Shown piece by piece: positions 38,115-49,101 of a stretch of 64,000 nt of DNA. Below the pieces are notes generated by a model. The model was not told where the DNA came from. It was given only the letters and a program-made list of their open reading frames with translations, and searched no databases. Positions within the stretch are counted from its first letter, which is position 1, and every line of letters begins with the position of its first letter. The DNA comes from Flavobacterium tructae (GTDB lineage Bacteria > Bacteroidota > Bacteroidia > Flavobacteriales > Flavobacteriaceae), in assembly GCF_002217475.1 (NCBI RefSeq), contig NZ_MUHH01000017.1:234950-298949 (forward strand), given 5' to 3'. Both the position numbers and the translations under genes were made by a program.

Positions 38115-39293
38115 TTATTTAAATGCTGGAATTCCAGTTACATCCATACCCGTTATTAGTAAATGAATGTCGTGAGTTCCTTCATAAGTAATAACACTTT
38201 CGAGATTCATCATGTGACGCATGATCGAATATTCGCCTGTAATACCCATTCCGCCCAGCATTTGTCTGGCTTCACGTGCGATATGTATGGCCATATCGAC
38301 ATTGTTGCGTTTTGCCATTGAGATTTGTGTGGTTGTAGCTCTTCCTTCGTTGCGTAAAACACCCAGGCGCCAGGTTAATAACTGTGCTTTTGTGATTTCG
38401 GTAATCATTTCAGCTAGTTTTTTCTGTTGCAATTGCGTTCCTCCGATAGGTTTCCCAAATTGAATTCTTTCTTTAGAATAACGTAAAGCAGTATCGTAGC
38501 AATCCATTGCAGCTCCAATAGCTCCCCAGGCAATTCCGTATCGTGCAGAATCTAAGCATCCAAGAGGTGCACCAAGACCGGATTTGTTAGGTAATAAGTT
38601 TTCTTTAGGAACTTTAACATTATCAAAGATTAGTTCTCCCGTTGAAGAGGCACGCAAAGACCATTTATTATGTGTCTCAGGAGTTGTAAAGCCTTCCATT
38701 CCGCGTTCAACGATCAAACCGTGAATTCTTCCTTCCTCATTTTTTGCCCAAACAATTGCGATATCGGCAAAAGGAGCGTTAGAAATCCACATTTTGGCAC
38801 CATTTAAAAGATAATGATCTCCCATATCTTTAAAATTAGTGATCATGCTTCCGGGGTCAGAACCGTGATCAGGCTCAGTCAAACCAAAGCATCCCATGAA
38901 TTCTCCTGTAGCCAGTTTTGGTAAATATTTCATTCGCTGTTCTTCGTTTCCATATTTCCAGATCGGATACATTACCAGGGAAGACTGAACGGATGAAGTC
39001 GATCGAACACCGGAATCTCCGCGTTCTATCTCCTGCATGATTAAACCGTAAGAAATCTGATCCAGACCCGCACCTCCGTATTCTACCGGAATATACGGTC
39101 CGAAACCACCGATTTCGCCGAGTCCTTTTATAATTTGTGTAGGGAATGCTGCTTTTTGAGCATATTCTTCTATAATTGGGGAAACTTCTCTCTTGACCCA
39201 GGCTCGCGCCGATTCTCGAACTAGTTTGTGTTCGTCTGTCAATAAGTCATCTAAGTTATAGTAATCTGGTGCTTGAAATAGGTCTGGTTTCAT
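38115..39293 (-). CDS. Acyl-CoA dehydrogenase, glutaryl-CoA dehydrogenase-like
   Basis: 392 residues. The FAD-enzyme fold is clear: FGLTEPDHGSDPGSM and AKMWISNAPFADIAIVWAK are flavin/substrate segments, and QMLGGMGITGEYSIMRHMMN is the C-terminal signature. The catalytic base is Glu371 in TYEGTHDIH, the position used by glutaryl-CoA dehydrogenase rather than by short-chain enzymes, and the LGCLDSARYGIAWGA element is also typical of that group. It likely converts glutaryl-CoA to crotonyl-CoA in lysine/tryptophan breakdown. Confidence 0.9.
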   Translation of the reverse strand: MKPDLFQAPDYYNLDDLLTDEHKLVRESARAWVKREVSPIIEEYAQKAAFPTQIIKGLGEIGGFGPYIPVEYGGAGLDQISYGLIMQEIERGDSGVRSTSSVQSSLVMYPIWKYGNEEQRMKYLPKLATGEFMGCFGLTEPDHGSDPGSMITNFKDMGDHYLLNGAKMWISNAPFADIAIVWAKNEEGRIHGLIVERGMEGFTTPETHNKWSLRASSTGELIFDNVKVPKENLLPNKSGLGAPLGCLDSARYGIAWGAIGAAMDCYDTALRYSKERIQFGKPIGGTQLQQKKLAEMITEITKAQLLTWRLGVLRNEGRATTTQISMAKRNNVDMAIHIAREARQMLGGMGITGEYSIMRHMMNLESVITYEGTHDIHLLITGMDVTGIPAFK

Positions 39294-39458: not shown

Positions 39459-41201
39459 ATGAGGCTGATCATCTCTTTTATACTCTTTTTTGTTGTAAAT
39501 GTCGCTGTTTCTCAGGAGAAAAAGGATTTTACGGAACAAGAGTACTTAATATTACAAGACAAAATTCGACTAACGGCAAATGCTAATGTTGACAGTTCGA
39601 TCGTATATGCTAATCAGCTGGCAAGATCTAATAACAATAAACATCTGGCTTTTGCAAATGCTGCATTGTCTTATTTGATTCAGTTAAAAGGAAATGCAGT
39701 AAAATCTAAGGAAAAATACCAGTTAGCCTTAAATTACTTAGACAAAATGCCGGATGATAAAGAAAAAACTCAACTTCGGTCTTATTTGTATAATTATGCC
39801 GGATTATCAGAATGGAAAAGAGAGAATTACAGTGATGCGATCGAAAATTACCAACAAGGAATAAAACTCTCTATAAAGATTGGGGATATTATTCAAATTG
39901 TTAAGTTTAAGAGTAATATCGCGGCTATAAATGTTGCTGTAGGTAATTATCGATTAGCGATTAAGGATTTGCGGAGTCTCAATGATTTTGTGGATAAAAA
40001 CCAGAGCGTTTATACCAAGCAGCAGTATCTTAATAATAAGAGTAACATCAATCTTAGTCTGGCAGGATCATATGAAAGCTTTTATATGAAAGATCCTAAA
40101 AAGAAGGTTTTGCTTGACTCTGCGGAGTATTTCTACCAAAAAACCATTAGCTATTCTCAAAATTTTCCGGACAATAAGATTGTAGCGAAATTAAGTTTAG
40201 GGAATATTTACGGTGAGCTGAAAGAATATAAAAATGCCGAAAAAACGTATTACGACATCATCTTTCTGGCCAATCAAAATAATATGCAGGAAATCTTATG
40301 TACTACTAATTATAATTTAGGAGACTTGTATTATAATACCAAAAAGTATGATAAGGCATTAGTGTTTTTTAAAAAATCAGATTCTATTGGCGAGCTAACT
40401 AAAACCAATCAGGTAGATCATCTGAAGTCAAATTATTATCAGGCAAAGATTTATAACATACTAAAAGAACCAGAACTGGCTTATAAACATTCAAAAATTT
40501 ACCTTGATAATTACGAAAAGTCAGAATCAAAATTAAATGATGAGATTCTGGAAGTAAATTATAAACTTGGAGTAGGAGATTTGACCAGTGAGATGGTTAC
40601 CATTCAGGAGAAGTATAAATACGACGTTTTTCTGAATAAAGCGCTGAAAGTATTTTATGTTGTTATATTTATAGGTATCGTATTCTTGCTGATAAAAAAC
40701 ATACGGGATAAAAATAAAGCACATAAAAAAATGAATGCTTTAATAGAAGAGTTTAAAGCTAATTTAGAGAAGAAAAACGACCCTGAACCAGAGATTGCTG
40801 TTCTGGAGTCTGAGGAGTTACAACTTAAGAAAGAGAATGTCAATTTAAGTATTGATGAGGCAAAAGAGAATAAAATAGTAGAAAAATTGCTGGCTTTAGA
40901 AAGTAAACAGGAATTTTTGCATGCCGATTTTACTTTGCCTTATGTGGCTAAGAAGATAAAAACAAATACAACCTATTTGTCTTATGTGGTAAACAAACGA
41001 TTCGGTAAGTCTTTTGGTGAATATTCGAATGAGTTGAAAATTAATTATGTTATTAATGAAATGATCACGAACCATATGTATCGTAAATATTCAACTCAGG
41101 CGATAGCAGAAAGTGTAGGTTTCAAAAATGCAGTGTCTTTTGCTAAATCATTTCGCAAAAGAACTGGAGTGTCTCCAGCTCAGTTTGCGAATAATATTTA
41201 A
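39459..41201 (+). CDS. TPR sensor with transmembrane helix and AraC-type DNA-binding domain
   Basis: 580 residues. MRLIISFILFFVVNVAVSQ is a signal peptide. Residues about 25-385 form TPR-like repeats (YNYAGLSEWKRENYSDAIENY, split as YNYAGLSEW and ENYSDAIENY; NLGDLYYNTKKYDKALVFF). One transmembrane helix lies at about 392-412 (VFYVVIFIGIVFLLI), then a linker, and an AraC HTH domain at the C-terminus (about 480-580: ADFTLPYVAKKIKTNTTYLS and AIAESVGFKNAVSFAKSFRK). It reads as a one-component receptor with a periplasmic TPR and a cytoplasmic DNA-binding end. It sits directly beside the tandem peptide genes (stop at 41201, peptide stop at 41221, convergent), so it is the natural candidate to regulate them or to sense their product. 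Confidence 0.9.
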   Translation: MRLIISFILFFVVNVAVSQEKKDFTEQEYLILQDKIRLTANANVDSSIVYANQLARSNNNKHLAFANAALSYLIQLKGNAVKSKEKYQLALNYLDKMPDDKEKTQLRSYLYNYAGLSEWKRENYSDAIENYQQGIKLSIKIGDIIQIVKFKSNIAAINVAVGNYRLAIKDLRSLNDFVDKNQSVYTKQQYLNNKSNINLSLAGSYESFYMKDPKKKVLLDSAEYFYQKTISYSQNFPDNKIVAKLSLGNIYGELKEYKNAEKTYYDIIFLANQNNMQEILCTTNYNLGDLYYNTKKYDKALVFFKKSDSIGELTKTNQVDHLKSNYYQAKIYNILKEPELAYKHSKIYLDNYEKSESKLNDEILEVNYKLGVGDLTSEMVTIQEKYKYDVFLNKALKVFYVVIFIGIVFLLIKNIRDKNKAHKKMNALIEEFKANLEKKNDPEPEIAVLESEELQLKKENVNLSIDEAKENKIVEKLLALESKQEFLHADFTLPYVAKKIKTNTTYLSYVVNKRFGKSFGEYSNELKINYVINEMITNHMYRKYSTQAIAESVGFKNAVSFAKSFRKRTGVSPAQFANNI

Positions 41202-41220
41202 AAAGTTTCTTAGATTTTTA

Positions 41221-41355
41221 TTAAGGAATTTCGTCAGTGCTTCCTTTACCATTCCCTCTGGAAGGGTCACCGTCACCTCCGAAAATTGTTTGTTGCTCTT
41301 TTCTTGATAATTTTTCGTTTCCAAAATCTTCGAATTTTATTTTTTTAGTTTTCAT
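41221..41355 (-). CDS. Double-glycine leader peptide A (44 residues)
   Basis: Translated on the minus strand it starts MKTKKIKFEDF, continues with the leader LSRKEQQTIFGG, and ends with the 17-residue core DGDPSRGNGKGSTDEIP. The double glycine at 26-27 is the expected cut site for a C39 peptidase. It is the most diverged member of five tandem genes and the last in their order of transcription, and its start lies two bases from the stop of the upstream neighbour. No cysteine is present, so the product would be linear unless modified in another way. Confidence 0.85.
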   Translation of the reverse strand: MKTKKIKFEDFGNEKLSRKEQQTIFGGDGDPSRGNGKGSTDEIP

Positions 41356-41357
41356 TG

Positions 41358-41495
41358 TTATAGGTTTATTAGTTGTGTAGATCCGTTGCCATTTCCTCTA
41401 TTACTATCGTTGTCACCTCCACGAACCGTTTTTTGTTCTTTTTTTGAAAGTGTATTGCTTGTAAAATCTTCGAAATTTAATTTTTTATTTTCCAT
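41358..41495 (-). CDS. Double-glycine leader peptide B (45 residues)
   Basis: The leader begins MENKKLNFEDF and ends LSKKEQKTVRGG; the core is DNDSNRGNGNGSTQLINL. Compared with C to E the GDP is lost and the tail is changed (GNGNGS then TQLINL). The glycines at 26-27 line up with the other four. The leader is nearly that of C and D, showing recent duplication followed by divergence of the core. Confidence 0.85.
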   Translation of the reverse strand: MENKKLNFEDFTSNTLSKKEQKTVRGGDNDSNRGNGNGSTQLINL

Positions 41496-41515
41496 TTTTA
41501 GTAGATCTTTAATGA

Positions 41516-41668
41516 TTAATTAGATCCCTTTCCATTTCCTCTACTTGGATCACCGGTAATTGTATCGATGGGAGTATTAGAATCGTCACCTCCACGAACC
41601 GTTTTTTGTTCTTTTTTTGAAAGTGTATTGCTTTTGAAATTTTCGAAGTTTAATTTTTTATTTTTCAT
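41516..41668 (-). CDS. Double-glycine leader peptide C (50 residues)
   Basis: MKNKKLNFENF with SNTLSKKEQKTVRGG form the 27-residue leader; the 23-residue core is DDSNTPIDTITGDPSRGNGK followed by GSN. The leader is identical in amino acids to that of peptide D and the core differs from D at only three positions, so C and D are a very recent duplication. An AT-rich spacer of 20-21 bases separates the genes. Confidence 0.88.
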   Translation of the reverse strand: MKNKKLNFENFKSNTLSKKEQKTVRGGDDSNTPIDTITGDPSRGNGKGSN

Positions 41669-41689
41669 GATTTGATTTTTTTTAAATGA

Positions 41690-41842
41690 TTAATTAGATC
41701 CTTTTCCATTTCCTCTACTTGGATCACCAGTAATTGTCTCGATAGGAGTAGTAGGATCGTCACCTCCACGAACCGTTTTTTGTTCTTTTTTTGAAAGTGT
41801 ATTGCTTTTGAAATTTTCGAAGTTTAATTTTTTATTTTTCAT
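41690..41842 (-). CDS. Double-glycine leader peptide D (50 residues)
   Basis: It has the same leader as C (MKNKKLNFENF ... KKEQKTVRGG) and the core DDPTTPIETITGDPSRGNGK followed by GSN. The change from C is SN to PT and Asp to Glu, all in the variable part before the constant GDPSRGNGKGSN end. This fits selection on the C-terminal part. Confidence 0.88.
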   Translation of the reverse strand: MKNKKLNFENFKSNTLSKKEQKTVRGGDDPTTPIETITGDPSRGNGKGSN

Positions 41843-41862
41843 AATTTGATTTTTTTAAATGA

Positions 41863-42000
41863 TTAATTAGACCCTTTTCCATTCCCTCTACTTGGGTCAC
41901 CTGGAATATTAGATTCGTCTCCTCCCTGAACCGTTTTTTGTTCTTTTTTTGACAGTTTTTCAGATTGAAAATCTTCGAATTTTTGTGCTCGATTTGTCAT
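41863..42000 (-). CDS. Double-glycine leader peptide E (45 residues), first gene of the array
   Basis: The leader MTNRAQKFEDFQSEKL runs into SKKEQKTVQGG, with the core DESNIPGDPSRGNGKGSN. It is the most upstream gene of the five in the order of transcription and carries a different N-terminus from B to D. A TAnnTTTG element lies 30 bases before its ATG. The cut site (GG at 26-27) and the GDPSRGNGKGSN end are conserved. Confidence 0.87.
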   Translation of the reverse strand: MTNRAQKFEDFQSEKLSKKEQKTVQGGDESNIPGDPSRGNGKGSN

Positions 42001-42029
42001 GTTTGTTTGTATTAGGATTATTGATATAT

Positions 42030-42037
42030 CAAAACTA
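42030..42037 (-). promoter_or_regulatory. Candidate -7 element (TAGTTTTG) of the peptide array
   Basis: Read on the minus strand the sequence is TAGTTTTG, a match to TAnnTTTG, and lies 30 bases before the first peptide start. No clear TTG at -33 is present. Gaps of 2-21 bases between the five genes suggest one transcript from here. Confidence 0.5.
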
Positions 42038-42259
42038 TGCAAAAAGGAAAACGCTTAATCGAGAATGGGGTTTTTGGGGTTTTTGATAAATCATTTCAAG
42101 ATCAAAATACTGATAATCAACAAGTTGCTGTTTTATTCAGACTGATATAATTTATAAATTGTATGTAGTATAATTAATAAAATGTGTACTACTAGCGTTT
42201 TTTTCTCAACAAAAACAACAATCTTTGCAGTGTAATTATGATTTTAAAGACTCGAAAAG

Positions 42260-43822
42260 ATGTTAAAGCTTGTCCAAAAATTTCTACAAATAAACAAGTA
42301 CTCGGAGATTAAAAATGAGTTTAAAGATTTGTTCCTTTCTCATCCAAATTATCCTAGTTTGTTTGCGATAACAGATTCTCTGGATTTACTGTCTGTAGAG
42401 AATGCTGCGATAAGAGTTCCGAAAGAGCAAATAGTAGATTTGCCTTCAAATTTTTTGGCTTATTTCAAAGAGGAGTTAATATTAGTGGAAAAGGCAAAGA
42501 ATTTTGTTCGAATCAATACGATGAAAAAAGGAAGTCAGAAAATGGCTTATGAAAAGTTTTTATTAGACTGGAATGGAGTTATAGTTGCAATTGAACCAAA
42601 CAATGTTATAGCAAGAGACAGAATAAAAGTTGAATTCAGCTGGTTGAAATATGGTTTGCCGCTTTTGTTGGTAGTTGGATTGTCATTTTTTTACAATACA
42701 TACAATTTATTTAGCCTTGTTTTTTTAACAACATCAATTTTAGGATTCATTGTAAGTGTTTTCATTGTTCAGGAAAAACTGGGATTTAAGAATAGTATCA
42801 TTTCAAAACTTTGCAATTTTAGTTCTAACTCTTCCTGTAGCTCTGTAATCAATAGTAAAGAGGGTAATGAAAGTAAGTGGATTAGCTTTCCGGACTTGCC
42901 ACTAATGTTTTTTGGAGCCAGTTTGATTGCAATTTTGGTAAAACCATTGGAGTCTTCGATTTTCATAGGTTTTTTAAGCTTATTAGCGATACCGGTTATT
43001 GTGTCTTCTATTTGGATTCAAAAATTTGAAATTCAAAGATGGTGTGTAATGTGCTTAGTGGTGTCTTCTTTGATTTTTGTGCAAAGTGCTATATGGTTTG
43101 CATCAGATTTGTTTACGTTGAGTTTTAGTTTTGCCGAAATTTTTCCATTCTTGTTCTCATTGGCACTTCTTGTTCCTATTTGGGCAGTTTTGAAAACAAT
43201 TATAAAAAACATCTTAGGTACCGAAAGTTCACTTAAAGAGATGAAAAAGTTTAAAAGAAATTACTCTTTATTGAACTTCTTGTCTAAAAAAGTGCCTCAC
43301 ATAAATGGACTTGATGATCTGAGAGGATTGCATTTTGGAAATAGAAATGCGGCCGTTAAGTTATCAGTAATCATCAGCCCTAGTTGTGGACATTGTCATA
43401 AAACATTTCAGGAGGCGTTTGATTTAGTGTTGAGATTTCCGGATAAGATACACTTGAATGTGTTGTTTAATGTAAATCCTGAGAATGCCGAAAATCCATA
43501 TAAAGTGGTAGTTGAAAGACTTTTAACAATAAACAGATCTACACCGGGAAAAACAGTTGAGGCTATTTCAGACTGGCATATTAAAAATATGAGTCTTAAG
43601 AAATGGTTGAAAAAATGGACTGTTGATTCTGTAAGTATGATGATAACGCAGGAAATAAACAAGCAATATGAATGGTGTTCTAAAAACGATTTTAATTACA
43701 CACCCGTTAAGATTGTAAATGATAAAATTTTTCCGGCAGAATATGAATTAGGAGAGTTAAAATACTTTTTAAACGATTATATCGAAGAGAAAGAAGAGGT
43801 TGTTTTAGAAAAAACAGCATAA
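42260..43822 (+). CDS. Degenerate-C39 / VKOR / thioredoxin fusion (disulfide-forming protein)
   Basis: 520 residues, three parts. Residues 1-about 115 look like a C39 peptidase domain (LSHPNYPSLFAITDSLDLL, LPSNFLAYF, FLLDWNGVIVAIEP) but have no cysteine before residue 185, so it is catalytically dead. A VKOR domain with five or six membrane helices (about 130-315) has the loop cysteines Cys185 and Cys193 and the active-site pair Cys262/Cys265 in RWCVMC. The C-terminal thioredoxin/DsbA-like domain has the pair Cys376/Cys379 in SPSCGHCHKTF. VKOR oxidises quinone-linked disulfides and hands oxidising power to the thioredoxin part. It lies next to a six-cysteine secreted peptide, 85 bases upstream of it, so its natural substrate is likely that peptide. 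Confidence 0.9.
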   Translation: MLKLVQKFLQINKYSEIKNEFKDLFLSHPNYPSLFAITDSLDLLSVENAAIRVPKEQIVDLPSNFLAYFKEELILVEKAKNFVRINTMKKGSQKMAYEKFLLDWNGVIVAIEPNNVIARDRIKVEFSWLKYGLPLLLVVGLSFFYNTYNLFSLVFLTTSILGFIVSVFIVQEKLGFKNSIISKLCNFSSNSSCSSVINSKEGNESKWISFPDLPLMFFGASLIAILVKPLESSIFIGFLSLLAIPVIVSSIWIQKFEIQRWCVMCLVVSSLIFVQSAIWFASDLFTLSFSFAEIFPFLFSLALLVPIWAVLKTIIKNILGTESSLKEMKKFKRNYSLLNFLSKKVPHINGLDDLRGLHFGNRNAAVKLSVIISPSCGHCHKTFQEAFDLVLRFPDKIHLNVLFNVNPENAENPYKVVVERLLTINRSTPGKTVEAISDWHIKNMSLKKWLKKWTVDSVSMMITQEINKQYEWCSKNDFNYTPVKIVNDKIFPAEYELGELKYFLNDYIEEKEEVVLEKTA

Positions 43823-43907
43823 TATCTGAAAATAGTTACAACAGACAGAAGCTTCAACTGTCTTAAAATGATTGAAGTATGAGTCCAAAAAACAAAAGCC
43901 TTTAGTT

Positions 43908-44105
43908 ATGTTAAAAATCATTTTAAACTTAGAAGGTGCTCAAGAGCTAAGTGCGTTCGAGCAAAAAAGCATGGTAGGAGGACAGCCAATTAATCCGCCT
44001 AAAAGATGTTGCGTTTGTCCGGGTAGAGGTTCGTCTACTCTTGTAACGTGTGATTCGATTTGTTCGAATGGTACAATACCGGCAGTGCTTGAGGATTGTT
44101 TGTAG
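43908..44105 (+). CDS. Cysteine-rich double-glycine leader peptide (65 residues)
   Basis: The start is the ATG at 43908; an earlier in-frame TTG at 43872 would add 12 residues and shift the leader away from its usual length. The leader MLKIILNLEGAQELSAFEQK then SMVGG ends in GG at 24-25. The core of 40 residues starts QPINPPKRCCVCPGRG and has six cysteines: CCVC, then CDSIC, then one near the C-terminus (EDCL). This predicts up to three disulfides. It lies between the VKOR-thioredoxin gene and the C39-ABC exporter gene, which fits an exported, oxidised peptide. No lanthionine or radical-SAM enzyme is near. The class (bacteriocin, signal or other) is unknown. Confidence 0.85.
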   Translation: MLKIILNLEGAQELSAFEQKSMVGGQPINPPKRCCVCPGRGSSTLVTCDSICSNGTIPAVLEDCL

Positions 44106-44460
44106 TCTTACTCTAATGAGGAGCATTTAATGTAAGAAGGAGGCTAAAGAAATCTTCACATTTACAGAATGTTTCGAAATTGAAGTATATAAGACAAGGT
44201 AAAATGACTTTGGTCGTTTTTGATATTAATTTTTTAGCGTTTTAATAGAAGTACGAAATAGCCTTTTTTAGAATTTAGTCATGTTTTTTTTAATTTGTAG
44301 GCGCTCGATCGTGGAACATTGAGCAAATTTCCCCACATTGATGATTGGTGTAGGGATTCTTAGGAAATTGGTCACTGAGTTGATTTTAATTGGTTAGGGT
44401 TAACCAGTGCCATGTCCTAAAGAAATTGTATTTCTAATAGATATGTTTTTAAATACTCTA

Positions 44461-44494
44461 ACAGAGAAGATTTATTTCTTCTCTGTTTTTTTTT
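44461..44494 (+). terminator. Terminator downstream of the cysteine-rich peptide gene
   Basis: ACAGAGAAGA (44461-44470) pairs with TCTTCTCTGT (44477-44486), followed by eight T. It is about 355 bases beyond the peptide stop. Confidence 0.85.
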
Positions 44495-44686
44495 GGATTA
44501 ATCCGTCGCTTTGTAATGAACTTAATGAAATCATTTATATGGATTGATTGTTAGGGCGGTAAAGGATAGAGGTAGGATTTTTAAATGGTCTGGTAGCCTT
44601 AAACCCGACAAGAAAAATTCTTGTAAAATCCTTTTTTTAGGATCATTGTTGTTTTTTAACTATAAATCAGAAGGAAAAACAAATAA

Positions 44687-44721
44687 TTGCGATTTTTTGG
44701 CGGATAAATATTATATTTTTG
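44687..44721 (+). promoter_or_regulatory. Candidate promoter of the C39-ABC/HlyD genes
   Basis: TTG (44687-44689), 24 bases, then TATTTTTG (44714-44721) fit the Bacteroidota TTG/TAnnTTTG promoter with a spacer one base long. It lies 55 bases before the TTG start codon. Confidence 0.5.
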
Positions 44722-44775
44722 TAAGGCAGATAATGGTAAGATTGTTTGTGCATAAATGATTAACCCTAAATTAAA

Positions 44776-46968
44776 TTGAAAAAATTCACCAATTATAAGC
44801 AGGCCGATTATAAAGATTGTGGGCCGACGTGTTTAAAAATAATAGCGAAACATTACGGCAAAACAATTAACATTCAGGAGTTGAGAGACATCAGTGAAAC
44901 AACTCGTGAAGGAAGTAATTTGCTTTTTTTGAGTGATGCGGCCGAGAAAATTGGCTTTAGAACTTTAGGGGTAAAATTAAATCTCGAACGATTAGAAGAG
45001 GCTCCGCTTCCTTGTGTTTTACATTGGAACAAAAATCATTACGTAGTACTTTACAAAATTAAAAGAAATACCTACTATATTTCGGATCCTGCTTTTGGCT
45101 TGATCGAATATAATAAAGAAGATTTTATTAAATTCTGGATCGGAAACAATGCGGATGAATCTACTCAGGAAGGAATTGCATTATTGATTGAAGCGACTCC
45201 TAAATTCTTTCAATCTGATTTTGATAAAGAAGACAATCACGGACTCGGATTTGGATTGTTGGCACAATACGTGCTTCGGTACAGGTCGTTTCTAATACAA
45301 TTAAGTATAGGATTATTGGCCAGTAGTTTATTGCAGCTTATTTTCCCGTTTTTAACCCAAAGTATTGTCGATGTCGGGATTCAAAATCAGAACATTCATT
45401 TTATTTACCTGATTCTTTTTGCTCAATTGTTCCTTTTTGCCGGAAGGACAGGTTTGGAACTTATCAGAAGCTGGATTTTGTTACATCTTTCTACCCGAAT
45501 CAACATTTCTCTTATTTCGGATTTCTTTATTAAACTAATGAATCTGCCCATTTCGTTTTTCGATGTACGAATGACTGGTGACATCATGCAGCGTATTAAT
45601 GACCATCGCAGAATTGAACAAATTTTGACAACATCATCTTTGAATGTCTTATTTTCTGTGATCAATATGTTTGTGATGGGAGGTGTCTTAGCTTACTTTA
45701 ATCTGAAGATCTTTCTAGTGTTTTTTGCGGGCAGTTTGCTTTATTTTGGGTGGATTACTTTGTTCTTAAAACGAAGAGAAGTACTCGATTACAAGCGTTT
45801 TGCAGAGGTTTCCAGTGAGCAAAACAAAGTAATGGAGCTTATCAACGGAATGCAGGAAATAAAGCTTCATAATGCCGAAAAACAAAAACGATGGGGATGG
45901 GAATACATACAGGCAAGGCTTTTTAGAGTTTCAATAAAGGGGCTGGTTTTAGAGCAAACACAAACTATAGGTTCTTCTGTAATCAATGAATTAAAAAATA
46001 TCTTTATTATATTCCTATCGGCAAAACTAGTAATTGATGGTTCTATTACACTGGGGATGATGCTGGCAATTAGTTCGATAGTAGGGAGTTTAAACGGGCC
46101 AATTACGCAGCTTATAGAATTCGTCAGGGAGCTTCAGGATGCGAAGATATCATTGGCCAGATTATCTGAAATTCATGAGAAAGAAGACGAAACGCAGCAA
46201 GAAGTCTATCAGACGAGTGATGTTCCTTTTGATTCAGATATTGATATTAATAACCTTTCCTATCGCTATTTAGGTTCTGATATTCCCGTTCTGGAAGATC
46301 TGACGCTGAAAATCCCGGCCAATAAAGTAACAGCAATAGTTGGAGTCAGCGGAAGCGGTAAAACAACTTTAATGAAGCTCTTATTGAAATTCTATGAACC
46401 TGAAAAAGGGGAGATAACCATCGGAAATGCGCAATTGAAAAATATTTCGCAAAAAGCATGGAGATCCAATATCGGAGCTGTTATGCAGGAAGGGTTTATT
46501 TTTAGTGATACCATTGCGAACAATATTGCAATTGGTGTCGATAAAGTAGATAAAGAACGTTTGGTCTATGCTGCTGATGTAGCCAACATAAAAGAATACA
46601 TTTCAGGTTTACCGTTAGGATACAATACAAAAATTGGCGCCGAAGGACTTGGGATGAGTAGCGGACAAAAGCAACGTTTGTTAATAGCAAGAGCAGTATA
46701 TAAAAACCCGGAAGTTTTGTTTTTTGATGAAGCTACATCGGCATTGGATGCGAATAATGAAAAAGAAATAATGCAAAAACTGGATATTTTCTTCAAAGAT
46801 AAAACAGTTGTGGTTATTGCCCATCGCTTAAGTACTGTGATGAATGCGGATCAAATTGTGGTTTTAGATAAAGGAAAAATTATCGAAATTGGCAGTCATT
46901 CTGTTTTGGTAGAGCAAAAAGGAAATTATTTTGAACTGGTTAAGAATCAATTGCAATTAGGAAATTAA
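44776..46968 (+). CDS. C39 peptidase-containing ABC exporter (PCAT)
   Basis: 730 residues. The C39 domain (about 1-140) has YKQADYKDCGPTCLKI with catalytic Cys15, the histidine in LHWNKNHYVVLYK and the aspartate in ISDPAFG, so it should cut after double glycine. The membrane domain is about 155-445. The ATPase has Walker A VGVSGSGKTTL (about 522), signature MSSGQKQRLLIAR (about 626, MSSGQ in place of LSGGQ), Walker B VLFFDEATSALD and H-loop IAHRLST. The start is TTG at 44776: an in-frame stop at 44767 excludes any upstream ATG, and MKKF-x-x-YKQ is the normal beginning. It exports and trims the GG-leader peptides nearby. The HlyD partner gene follows after three bases. Confidence 0.95.
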   Translation: MKKFTNYKQADYKDCGPTCLKIIAKHYGKTINIQELRDISETTREGSNLLFLSDAAEKIGFRTLGVKLNLERLEEAPLPCVLHWNKNHYVVLYKIKRNTYYISDPAFGLIEYNKEDFIKFWIGNNADESTQEGIALLIEATPKFFQSDFDKEDNHGLGFGLLAQYVLRYRSFLIQLSIGLLASSLLQLIFPFLTQSIVDVGIQNQNIHFIYLILFAQLFLFAGRTGLELIRSWILLHLSTRINISLISDFFIKLMNLPISFFDVRMTGDIMQRINDHRRIEQILTTSSLNVLFSVINMFVMGGVLAYFNLKIFLVFFAGSLLYFGWITLFLKRREVLDYKRFAEVSSEQNKVMELINGMQEIKLHNAEKQKRWGWEYIQARLFRVSIKGLVLEQTQTIGSSVINELKNIFIIFLSAKLVIDGSITLGMMLAISSIVGSLNGPITQLIEFVRELQDAKISLARLSEIHEKEDETQQEVYQTSDVPFDSDIDINNLSYRYLGSDIPVLEDLTLKIPANKVTAIVGVSGSGKTTLMKLLLKFYEPEKGEITIGNAQLKNISQKAWRSNIGAVMQEGFIFSDTIANNIAIGVDKVDKERLVYAADVANIKEYISGLPLGYNTKIGAEGLGMSSGQKQRLLIARAVYKNPEVLFFDEATSALDANNEKEIMQKLDIFFKDKTVVVIAHRLSTVMNADQIVVLDKGKIIEIGSHSVLVEQKGNYFELVKNQLQLGN

Positions 46969-46971
46969 AAC

Positions 46972-48264
46972 ATGGCAGAAGATACTACATTTGAACTAAG
47001 AAGTGAAGAAGTTCAGGACATTCTCACTAAGGTACCACATTGGATGATTCGTTGGGGGACTGTTTTGATATTCGTTATTATTACGATGCTTTTTTTCGTG
47101 TCCTGGTTTATCAAATATCCTGACGTTGTTGCGACTCAAATTGTAATTACAACCAATATTCCCCCAGAGAAGATCGTTTCGAAATCATCGGGTCGTATTG
47201 AGGCAATTTTAGTAAAAGACAAATCGATTGTTTCAAAAAACAGCACACTTGCTGTTATTGAAAATACCGCTAATTATAAAGATGTTTTTTTGTTGAAAAA
47301 AATCGTTGACGAATATAATATCAATGATTCCAGGAAAGCCTTTCCTTTCGAACTGTTGAAAAATACTCAGTTAGGAGAGATTGAAAGTGCTTTTGCCGTT
47401 TTTCAAAAAGACTATCAGGCAGAACAACTGAATAAGAATTTGCAGCCTTTTGAAGTAGAAAACCGGGCACAGGTTTCTGAAAAAGTTCAGATTAAAGACC
47501 GATTGGAAATTTTACAGCAGCAAAAAGTGATTAATGAAAGTGAATTGCAGCTTCAGAAAAATGAAATGGCGAGATTTGAAACCTTATTCAATAAAGGAAT
47601 CATTTCTGCACAGGAAATGGAAGCTAAAAAACTGGGGTATCTCCAGGCGCAAAAAAATTATAAAACCCTTTTGTCTTCCATTTCTCAGTTAAAGTCGGCT
47701 TTGATTACTAATTCTAAATTAAGTCAGAACTCACAAATCAGTGGGACTAAAGAAGAAGTTACTTTAGGAAGAAATATGGCGCAGTCTTTTTATCAGCTTA
47801 AAAAAGTAATAAAAGACTGGGAGCTGGCCTATGCTTTAAAATCATCGGTGAGTGGGGTGGTTACTTTTTTGCAGGTTTGGACAGAGAATCAAACGATCAA
47901 TACTGGGGATAACGTCTTTTCGATTATTCCGGATACCAAAAATGGTTTTGTAGGTAAGGTAAAAGCACCGGCATTGAATTCAGGGAAAATAAAAGTAGGT
48001 CAGATAGTGAACATCAGATTAGCGAATTTTCCCGACAGAGAATTTGGAGTGTTAAGAGGAAAGATCCAAAATATTTCTTTAGTTCCGGATAAAGATGGAA
48101 ATTTATTGTTGGATGTAGCGCTTCCCAACGGATTGGAAACGTCCTATAAAAAGCAAATCGTTTTTCAGCAGGAAATGAAAGGAAGTGCCGAGATTGTGAC
48201 CGAAGATTTACGTCTAATCGAGAGAATTTTATATCAGTTTAAAAGCCTTTTTGAGCAGGTTTAA
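46972..48264 (+). CDS. HlyD family secretion adaptor
   Basis: 430 residues; the inner-membrane helix is at about 26-47 (GTVLIFVIITMLFFVSWFI). The beta-barrel/lipoyl part begins RIEAILVKDKSIVSKNSTLA and is followed by a long coiled coil (about 150-250), the second lipoyl half SSVSGVVTFLQVWTENQTIN and the C-terminal domain. It connects the C39-ABC exporter to an outer-membrane channel; no TolC-like gene is in the locus. Its stop overlaps the stop of the convergent methyltransferase gene by four bases. Confidence 0.92.
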   Translation: MAEDTTFELRSEEVQDILTKVPHWMIRWGTVLIFVIITMLFFVSWFIKYPDVVATQIVITTNIPPEKIVSKSSGRIEAILVKDKSIVSKNSTLAVIENTANYKDVFLLKKIVDEYNINDSRKAFPFELLKNTQLGEIESAFAVFQKDYQAEQLNKNLQPFEVENRAQVSEKVQIKDRLEILQQQKVINESELQLQKNEMARFETLFNKGIISAQEMEAKKLGYLQAQKNYKTLLSSISQLKSALITNSKLSQNSQISGTKEEVTLGRNMAQSFYQLKKVIKDWELAYALKSSVSGVVTFLQVWTENQTINTGDNVFSIIPDTKNGFVGKVKAPALNSGKIKVGQIVNIRLANFPDREFGVLRGKIQNISLVPDKDGNLLLDVALPNGLETSYKKQIVFQQEMKGSAEIVTEDLRLIERILYQFKSLFEQV

Positions 48265-48968
48265 AATTTTAAATAAAAATCTTTAGTAAGATCAATATAC
48301 TGAGGAGTATAAACGTGTCGGTCAATTTCTATTGTTAATTCATCAACTTCAGGTTGTGAGGTTTCGTTACGGCTAAAAGCCAAAAGACTACGCTTTACAA
48401 CAGCTGTAGGAGTGCCTTTTACCCGTGTAATTTTGACAGGGTATAATTCGGATTCTTTGGCTAAGGCAATAAATTTTTCTTCTTCTTTAAAAGGAAGAAT
48501 TATGGCAAGTATTCCATTTTCAGATAAAAGTAAATCAGCTGCTTCGACTAATTCTTCAAAAGGCATTGCGTCCTGAAAGCGTGCTAAATCCCGTTGCTCG
48601 TTTTCGCTTTTATAATCTTCAGCATAAAAGGGTGGATTCGAAACAATCAGATCATATTCGTCTTCCGGTTCTTCTATAAATTCATCCAAACCTGCATGGA
48701 AACAAAATAAACGGTCTCCCCAAGGCGAGTTTTCAAAATTCTCTACTGCTTCTTCATAAGCATCTTCGTCAATTTCAAGCGCGTCAATTTGCTCTGCATT
48801 TGTTCTTTGTGCCAGCATTAAAGCAATAATCCCAGTTCCGGCGCCAATGTCTAAAACACTAAATGGATTGTGATTTATAGGTGCCCAAGCACCCAGTAAA
48901 ACACCATCAGTGCCAACTTTCATAGCGGTTTTGTCTTGTAGAACTGAAAATTGTTTGAATTGAAACAT
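48261..48968 (-). CDS. trmN: tRNA1(Val) (adenine(37)-N6)-methyltransferase
   Basis: 236 residues from the ATG at 48968; an upstream in-frame ATG at 49034 would add 22 residues that do not resemble the family, and MFQFKQFSVLQDKTAMKVGT is the family's usual start. The AdoMet motif is VLDIGAGTGIIALML and the N6-adenine motif is DLIVSNPPFYAED. It methylates A37 of tRNA1(Val). It converges with the HlyD gene; the two stop codons overlap (48261-48264). Confidence 0.92.
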   Translation of the reverse strand: MFQFKQFSVLQDKTAMKVGTDGVLLGAWAPINHNPFSVLDIGAGTGIIALMLAQRTNAEQIDALEIDEDAYEEAVENFENSPWGDRLFCFHAGLDEFIEEPEDEYDLIVSNPPFYAEDYKSENEQRDLARFQDAMPFEELVEAADLLLSENGILAIILPFKEEEKFIALAKESELYPVKITRVKGTPTAVVKRSLLAFSRNETSQPEVDELTIEIDRHVYTPQYIDLTKDFYLKF

Positions 48969-49101
48969 AAATAAATTTGAATGATTTGAACTCCAAAGAA
49001 TAGAAGAAGAAATTCCAATAGTAGGAAATTCCAAATTCCAATTGCAAAATGGAATGAATTAATATTTTAGGGAGTAAAAATAAGATTAAAATATCAATTT
49101 G

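Follow-up and report, generated by a model that had tools for sequence, protein, structure and literature searches.

A predicted peptide-pheromone circuit around a TPR-AraC regulator in Flavobacterium tructae

Double-glycine (GG) leader peptides of two kinds lie beside a single exporter in Flavobacterium tructae, and the question raised by this locus is what each kind is for and with which protein it works. The locus occupies positions 39459-48264 of the window, by which we mean the whole stretch of 64,000 nucleotides that was analysed. Its genes follow in the order REG (our label for the TPR-AraC regulator, + strand), five linear GG open reading frames (ORFs, - strand) and then, on the + strand, a fusion of C39-like, VKOR and thioredoxin-like domains (the VKOR fusion), a six-cysteine GG precursor, a C39 peptidase-ATP-binding cassette (ABC) exporter and an HlyD-type protein. 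Only REG, the VKOR fusion, ABC and HlyD exceed 100 aa.

All of these parts, the five linear and the one six-cysteine precursor included, had been listed in the initial annotation and were found in place. It had taken them for one coherent secretion or signalling system, an idea to be given up if peptide genes were not kept near C39-ABC genes in relatives; they are kept there, and the arrangement is conserved. Its view of the two kinds of peptide as two products of one secretion line did not hold up as well, since they are likely a signal and an output. It had also overlooked that the partner of the linear peptides, judged from their pairing across relatives, is the regulator rather than the exporter, and that a predicted REG operator in the divergent promoter is strongly conserved. 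The locus is probably a peptide-pheromone autoinduction cassette. Peptide and REG would then likely form a species-specific chemical password that induces both itself and the Cys-rich, possibly antibacterial peptides.

The regulator and its linear peptides

REG (39459..41201, + strand) begins with a hydrophobic signal-like stretch, continues with a TPR superhelix at residues ~26-356 (TPR_1, E-value 1.5e-9) and a second hydrophobic segment at ~393-412, and ends in an AraC-type helix-turn-helix (HTH) domain; both hydrophobic stretches were read by eye. The HTH_18 match (E-value 1.4e-12; 48.2 bits against a cut-off of 33.6) identifies the C terminus as an AraC/XylS DNA-binding domain. REG is predicted to be a periplasmic receptor and a DNA-binding activator in one protein. 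Among the 120 of 406 matches listed, its relatives bear generic source names (helix-turn-helix protein, AraC family, histidine kinase).

In the AlphaFold2 model of REG (predicted local distance difference test score, pLDDT, 84.2; predicted template modelling score, pTM, 0.60) the TPR superhelix aligns with the peptide-bound structures of LGN, Rap and NprR. This fold by itself does not mark REG as a pheromone receptor, because Foldseek and VIA-align return general TPR superhelices, with APPBP2 and LGN ranking above Rap and NprR. Asparagines are retained in the TPR domain at positions 153 and 286 (52/52 sequences), 112 (51/52) and 325 (49/52). Across 70 loci the mean pairwise difference is 0.368 in the TPR domain, 0.116 in the cytoplasmic part and 0.218 in the VKOR fusion, and mean column entropy is 1.07 bits in the TPR domain versus 0.13 bits in the HTH. 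These values indicate that the input side of REG diversifies fast while its HTH output is nearly frozen.

At an E-value threshold of 1e-20, REG matches were found in 34 of the 101 Flavobacterium genomes sampled. Twenty-eight are near full-length with at least 37% identity; the other six are partial or remote (26-39%). Exporter matches occur in 41 and VKOR fusion matches in 34 of the same genomes, at the thresholds used. The closest named REG, from Flavobacterium sp. UGB4466, is 99% identical. F. johnsoniae, a species open to genetic work, has the locus in strain CI04 (L183). Linear GG precursors, one to six per locus, lie between the last REG gene and the VKOR fusion, on the strand opposite REG, in each of the 68 named Flavobacterium REG loci. 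All 68 also adjoin the same acyl-CoA dehydrogenase gene, which argues for an inherited chromosomal locus and not a hopping island.

The pairing was counted for 104 REG genes passing the filter in 97 loci, from two sets that overlap in species and were not deduplicated (loci retrieved from relatives are identified by L-numbers). A convergent GG precursor lies directly downstream of 93 of the 104, 90 by strict pattern and three by inspection. Two more have a degenerate precursor, with GK in L052 and CG, together with cysteines, in L053. The nine left over all precede other REG genes in tandem arrays, where the peptide comes with the final copy. The pairing extends to loci without the export genes: in the 18 kb fetched, L057 has REG and a linear peptide, and L058 has REG with linear and Cys-rich peptides, both without ABC or VKOR. 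Conversely, no linear precursor was found with the same pattern in 19 loci (~0.31 Mb) that have a related exporter and/or VKOR fusion but no REG. These have Cys-rich peptides or none; the one cysteine-free match there, in L148, overlaps the HlyD gene. Several of these REG-less loci come from genomes with REG elsewhere. The same kind of scan found no GG precursors in nine loci of remote TPR-AraC paralogues of the genus.

Tandem REG genes, two or three in a row, were seen in L037/L184, L178, L185, L186, L190, L194, L212 and L213. In these loci it is the final copy alone that linear peptides follow, and receptors outnumber peptide genes. The REG of F. frigidimaris (L206:6001-8000) matches in two pieces and may be a broken gene. 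Second exporter copies (81-89% identical to the F. tructae exporter) without REG or linear peptides are present in L140, L142 and L139; two of these three also have Cys-rich peptides, whose leaders belong to a different type.

In F. tructae the linear precursors lie on the - strand at 41221..41355 (core DGDPSRGNGKGSTDEIP), 41358..41495 (core DNDSNRGNGNGSTQLINL, with the most divergent motif), 41516..41668 (core DDSNTPIDTITGDPSRGNGKGSN), 41690..41842 (core DDPTTPIETITGDPSRGNGKGSN) and 41863..42000 (core DESNIPGDPSRGNGKGSN, promoter-proximal). The start of the fifth is most likely the ATG at 42000 and not the upstream TTG of the ORF list. Against the TIGR04149 cut-off of 25 bits the first precursor scores 21.8 and the second to fourth 27.6, 29.0 and 28.9; the fifth has no TIGR04149 match and scores 19.1 bits with NF047798, below the cut-off of 23.5. 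Four of the five cores end in DPSRGNGKGS.

Leaders in REG loci have [EQ]Q at -8/-7 in 162/213 linear and 105/132 Cys-rich precursors, K at -6 in ~90% of both types, and L or I at -12 in 98% of the linear ones. The linear leaders thereby show the L at -12 and E/Q at -8 of GG-pheromone leaders, a rule given as L(-12)...E(-8) in excerpts of PMC6363468. The leader motif xEQKx(2)GG proposed in the initial annotation comes close, but linear leaders have QQK as often as EQK. The shared -12/-8/-7/-6/GG pattern of both types fits a single processing machine. The 247 linear cores have a median length of 20 aa and are rich in Gly, Pro, Asp and Asn; nine contain one cysteine and none contains two.

In a deduplicated set of 72 loci (REG identity at least 60%, peptides present), each core could be assigned a 10-residue motif with the pattern [DEN]Px[KR]..G.G[NS]. 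Among the 58 loci that have at least two copies, the motif identity is 0.85 inside a locus, compared with 0.47 from one locus to another. The adjoining part of the core reaches 0.48 within loci, and the motif is the higher of the two in 50 of 55 scored loci and equal in five. Only 19 of the 58 loci have an identical motif in every copy. Sixty-two different majority motifs occur among the 72 loci; the motif is locus-specific. The flanks vary on both sides of the motif, which leaves two options, trimming down to the motif or a receptor that tolerates flanks. One core, in L156:7920-8102, holds the motif DPSKGDGKGN twice and resembles a repeat-type pheromone precursor.

The direct repeat between the divergent genes

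AraC-type proteins favour direct repeats. Between the peptide array and the VKOR fusion lie two 20-bp direct repeats with a 23-bp period, TATAATTTATAAATTGTATG and TATAATTAATAAAATGTGTA (42146..42188, + strand), which we predict to be the REG operator in a divergent promoter. The consensus TATAATTTATAAATTGTATGTaGTATAATTnATAAAAtGTnTg was found at this place in 70/70 loci with both ends available, its 16-bp core being free of mismatches in all of them and lying 100-112 bp from the VKOR start. The 4.95-Mb genome of F. tructae has one exact match to the operator and two more at three mismatches. With at most one mismatch, a 21-bp site pattern was found in 19 of the 101 genomes, exactly those with REG of at least 64% identity. 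At two mismatches it matched seven more unrelated places in six genomes versus five for a reversed control pattern, so that this level is background. The site can be followed into more distant loci: of 11 loci with REG of 37-50% identity, seven contain a total of nine places with scores of 30-35 out of 40, none of them more than ~130 bp upstream of VKOR, and 48 control loci (714 kb) have no site of at least 30 and one at 29.

The site is flanked by two -7-like boxes. On the VKOR side the box AATCTTTG (42220..42227, + strand; relaxed pattern [TCA]A[AT]nTTTG) marks the predicted VKOR promoter, and by the relaxed pattern it lies exactly 31 bp from the operator end in 70/70 loci. On the peptide side TAGTTTTG (42030..42037, - strand; TAnnTTTG) marks the predicted pheromone promoter, with a distance to the operator edge of 108-109 bp in 66/70 loci and 51-52 bp in four. 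A scan for sigma-70-type promoters gave 31 sites against 34 expected and was discarded as uninformative.

The proposed circuit and its alternatives

In the proposed circuit, the ABC-HlyD machine would cleave the linear precursors behind their GG and export the peptide, which, perhaps trimmed to the motif, would arrive in the periplasm of the producer or of its neighbours. There the groove of the REG TPR domain would bind the motif, most likely through the repeats in 182-356. A pair of cytoplasmic HTH domains on the direct repeat would activate the divergent promoter, leading to more pheromone in a positive feedback and to production of the VKOR fusion and the Cys-rich peptides. The cysteine-less C39-like domain may hold the leaders of the Cys-rich peptides while the VKOR and thioredoxin domains form disulfides. 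The output would then be disulfide-bonded Cys-rich peptides, possibly bacteriocins.

Motif distance follows TPR distance with r 0.32, and with a partial r of 0.25 given VKOR and the cytoplasmic part (Mantel, p 0.0005). As a sign of receptor-ligand co-divergence this plain test was weakened by a leader control and replaced by a half-domain test. Given VKOR, the cytoplasmic part, the leader and TPR 22-181, the motif follows TPR 182-356 with r 0.35 (p 0.001); for TPR 22-181 the value is -0.18. The leader behaves in the reverse way, with 0.43 for TPR 22-181 and -0.11 for 182-356. Among 29 non-redundant loci the motif still follows TPR 182-356 (r 0.30, p 0.0005), and two groups defined by VKOR (n=11 and n=57) give the same sign.

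A number of findings weigh against the circuit. Peptides of 12-25 residues would require a return route through the outer membrane. As the close loci share one chromosomal site, their counts are not independent events. The motif window was placed by a profile, which biases the comparison toward the motif over the spacer, and codon positions in within-locus leader pairs (1820/1759/2315) show a weak third-position excess, a weak purifying signal. The leader tracks the TPR domain more strongly (r 0.42) than the motif does, so that the plain test is not motif-specific; among the 29 non-redundant loci, motif against TPR given VKOR, the cytoplasmic part and the leader gives r 0.05 (p 0.23). The split at 181/182 was picked post hoc from the same data, and among the 11 loci of the smaller group TPR 182-356 is tracked by the leader as well. 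A per-site search for receptor positions following the motif was abandoned, as clade differences dominate and the top two positions are cytoplasmic. In four of the 11 distant loci (L054, L055, L057, L058) the site scores are 26-29, the background level.

Another point against the circuit concerns the exporter. A terminator-like hairpin with an 11-bp stem and a T run (44460..44487, + strand), between the Cys-rich peptide and the exporter, parts the latter from the upstream unit, and no half-site better than 15/20 was found upstream of ABC in 83 loci; together these suggest that the exporter may be a separate unit. The number of such hairpins in the region is not above that in shuffles, and a hairpin with T run is present in 53/72 relatives, a raw count taken without a control. 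Upstream of the exporter, 44290-44360 is a conserved stretch, with GTGGAACATTGA in 31/83 loci and TTGATGATTGGT in 33/83.

A different interpretation of the same parts is self-sensing: the linear peptide in the own periplasm would report a working exporter and so restrict synthesis of the Cys-rich peptides to times when export is possible. A receptor predicted to be periplasmic, a set of ORFs in the locus that includes neither an importer nor an outer-membrane factor, and an exporter that is apparently a separate unit would all suit this. Yet a private check needs no diversification, and 62 majority motifs in 72 loci beside a nearly frozen HTH and site are more in keeping with specificity between cells; loci with receptor genes in tandem but one peptide gene also speak against it. 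We consider self-sensing unlikely, and the autoinduction circuit is preferred.

It is more doubtful still that the linear peptides have an antimicrobial or other activity of their own, with REG switching the cluster on in response to a different cue, such as envelope stress or a nutrient. GG leaders are typical of bacteriocins, and TPR-AraC proteins of the family often come without recognisable GG peptides (24/29 fetched loci). However, the cores are short, polar and rich in Gly, Pro, Asp and Asn, and the peptides go with REG where exporter and VKOR are missing (L057) and not with the exporter where REG is missing.

The same circuit would run with negative feedback if REG repressed the promoter or if the peptide antagonised REG. 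The sign of regulation cannot be read from the sequence, and the distance of 108-109 bp to the peptide-side box counts in favour of this reading; on the VKOR side, however, the site ends 31 bp before the box in 70/70 loci, beside the expected -33 region, a usual place of an activator. A repressor is considered very improbable. Least probable of all is that the linear peptides are precursors of radical-SAM (rSAM)-modified, ribosomally synthesized and post-translationally modified peptides (RiPPs), since the TIGR04149 match, although above the cut-off in three of five, covers the leader region, and no radical-SAM or other modifying gene is among the ORFs of 39459-48264.

Known systems and the remaining genes

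The autoinduction circuit most resembles the streptococcal ComC-ComAB-ComDE and BlpC-BlpAB-BlpRH systems, which according to excerpts of PMC5295010 likewise have a GG pheromone, a C39-ABC exporter, co-regulated bacteriocin-like peptides and a conserved regulator site. In streptococci a single exporter can serve the pheromone and other GG peptides, and the pheromones drive bacteriocins via kinase receptors (PMC5295010). Streptococci sense the pheromone through a histidine kinase paired with a response regulator; here the receptor would be a single transmembrane TPR-AraC protein, and no histidine kinase or response regulator was found among the ORFs of more than 100 aa in 39459-48264. The host here is Gram-negative, and the pheromone gene is present in one to eight copies converging on the receptor gene. 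Membership of histidine-kinase systems and of rSAM RiPP systems was rejected, given that 39459-48264 contains no kinase or radical-SAM ORF.

The RRNPP receptors (Rap-Phr, NprR-NprX, PlcR, PrgX, Rgg) are cytosolic, have N-terminal output domains and bind re-imported peptides. In REG, by contrast, the TPR domain is N-terminal and predicted to be periplasmic, the AraC output is C-terminal and the precursors have GG leaders. With an N-terminal hydrophobic stretch, TPR first and the AraC HTH last, a topology read by eye, REG was not assigned to the RRNPP family.

Within Bacteroidota, the Bacteroidales RiPP clusters and bacteroidetocins also combine GG precursors with C39-ABC exporters. Two of nine such clusters hold TPR-domain genes, and pheromone binding is mentioned for them (PMC10352776, excerpts). 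These clusters carry rSAM or LanM enzymes, and the excerpts describe no paired linear array, operator or TPR-AraC receptor. Another likeness is found around NF047798 (leader_Chryseo, bacteriocin-like protein), where Cys-rich GG peptides lie near VKOR-type fusions and C39-ABC in several of 20 regions from another family, presumed from the model name to be Chryseobacterium. None of the 20 showed a REG-type receptor with a linear partner. Three have weak TPR-AraC-like matches without an adjacent linear peptide, and L250 has a low-Cys GG peptide without a TPR-AraC match. NF047798 leader peptides reach at least 35 per genome in that family and are mostly Cys-rich in the regions fetched.

In the open-access papers searched, we found no account of a one-component transmembrane TPR-AraC protein serving as receptor for a GG pheromone, nor of such a receptor with a paired GG peptide array. 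GG pheromones, cytosolic TPR receptors and TPR genes near RiPP clusters are known; what would be new is the one-component receptor with its paired GG array. The chances are slightly in favour of a new class of quorum sensing, with species-specific GG arrays, a one-component transmembrane TPR-AraC receptor, a single genomic site and disulfide-bonded weapons. If so, Bacteroidota would have peptide quorum sensing of their own with a receptor architecture not found in those papers, in which the cytosolic TPR peptide sensing of Gram-positives is joined to a one-component regulator in the membrane. Synthetic peptides would allow a direct test of cell-cell signalling in a genus abundant in soil and water, and a way to switch on cryptic Cys-rich GG peptides and learn their role would suggest itself. 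The large group of unassigned TPR-AraC proteins would become candidate peptide receptors. No close REG was found in 298 other genomes of the family (E-value 1e-60, four candidates scored per genome). In five of 29 fetched TPR-AraC relatives, all from other Flavobacteriaceae genera (L274, L283, L286, L289, L290), a same-strand GG-leader peptide lies ~80-130 bp downstream of the TPR-AraC gene, a lower bound because the gene end is uncertain in several loci. Four of the five share a similar tail (STLVC, PTLVT, FSVLC), possibly a second receptor-peptide class, which hints that TPR-AraC receptors extend beyond Flavobacterium.

The VKOR fusion (42260..43822, + strand) is predicted to make the disulfides of the Cys-rich peptides. 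Its VKOR match is clear (E-value 5e-12; 46.6 bits against a cut-off of 27.5); Peptidase_C39 (18.4 bits) and Thioredoxin_4 (18.8 bits) stay below their cut-offs. In fold comparisons the model of the fusion matches VKOR, thioredoxin folds of the DsbA/ScsC type and the C39 peptidase domains of ComA and PCAT1. All seven cysteines (185, 193, 262, 265, 376, 379, 473) lie outside the N-terminal domain, which bears out the 'degenerate C39' of the initial annotation. C185, C193, C262, C265, C376 and C379, with the VKOR and CxxC pairs among them, are invariant in 25 relatives. Excerpts of PMC6363468 describe a comparable C39-like domain (CLD) in HlyB, with a C39 fold but no catalytic Cys and thought to recruit substrate; there it belongs to an ABC transporter, here it is fused to VKOR and a thioredoxin-like domain.

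The exporter (44776..46968, + strand; Peptidase_C39, E-value 1.5e-34) keeps the catalytic Cys, His and Asp of C39, with DCG at 14-16 and HY and DP motifs, so that the locus encodes its own C39-ABC protein with catalytic residues, as GG-pheromone systems do. It is followed by the HlyD-type membrane fusion protein (46972..48264, + strand; HlyD_3, E-value 2.4e-13; TIGR01843, E-value 2.6e-23, below its cut-off). The left neighbour of the locus is the acyl-CoA dehydrogenase-like gene (38115-39293, - strand) and the right neighbour a methyltransferase-like gene (48261-49034, - strand), both named by eye from their translations.

The six-cysteine precursor (43908..44105, + strand), with a 25-residue leader, a 40-residue core containing six Cys and most likely the ATG at 43908 as its start, is the predicted output peptide. 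About sixteen different Cys-rich GG precursors, all candidate outputs, were seen in a single REG locus, L054 (6648-9136 and on to 15253).

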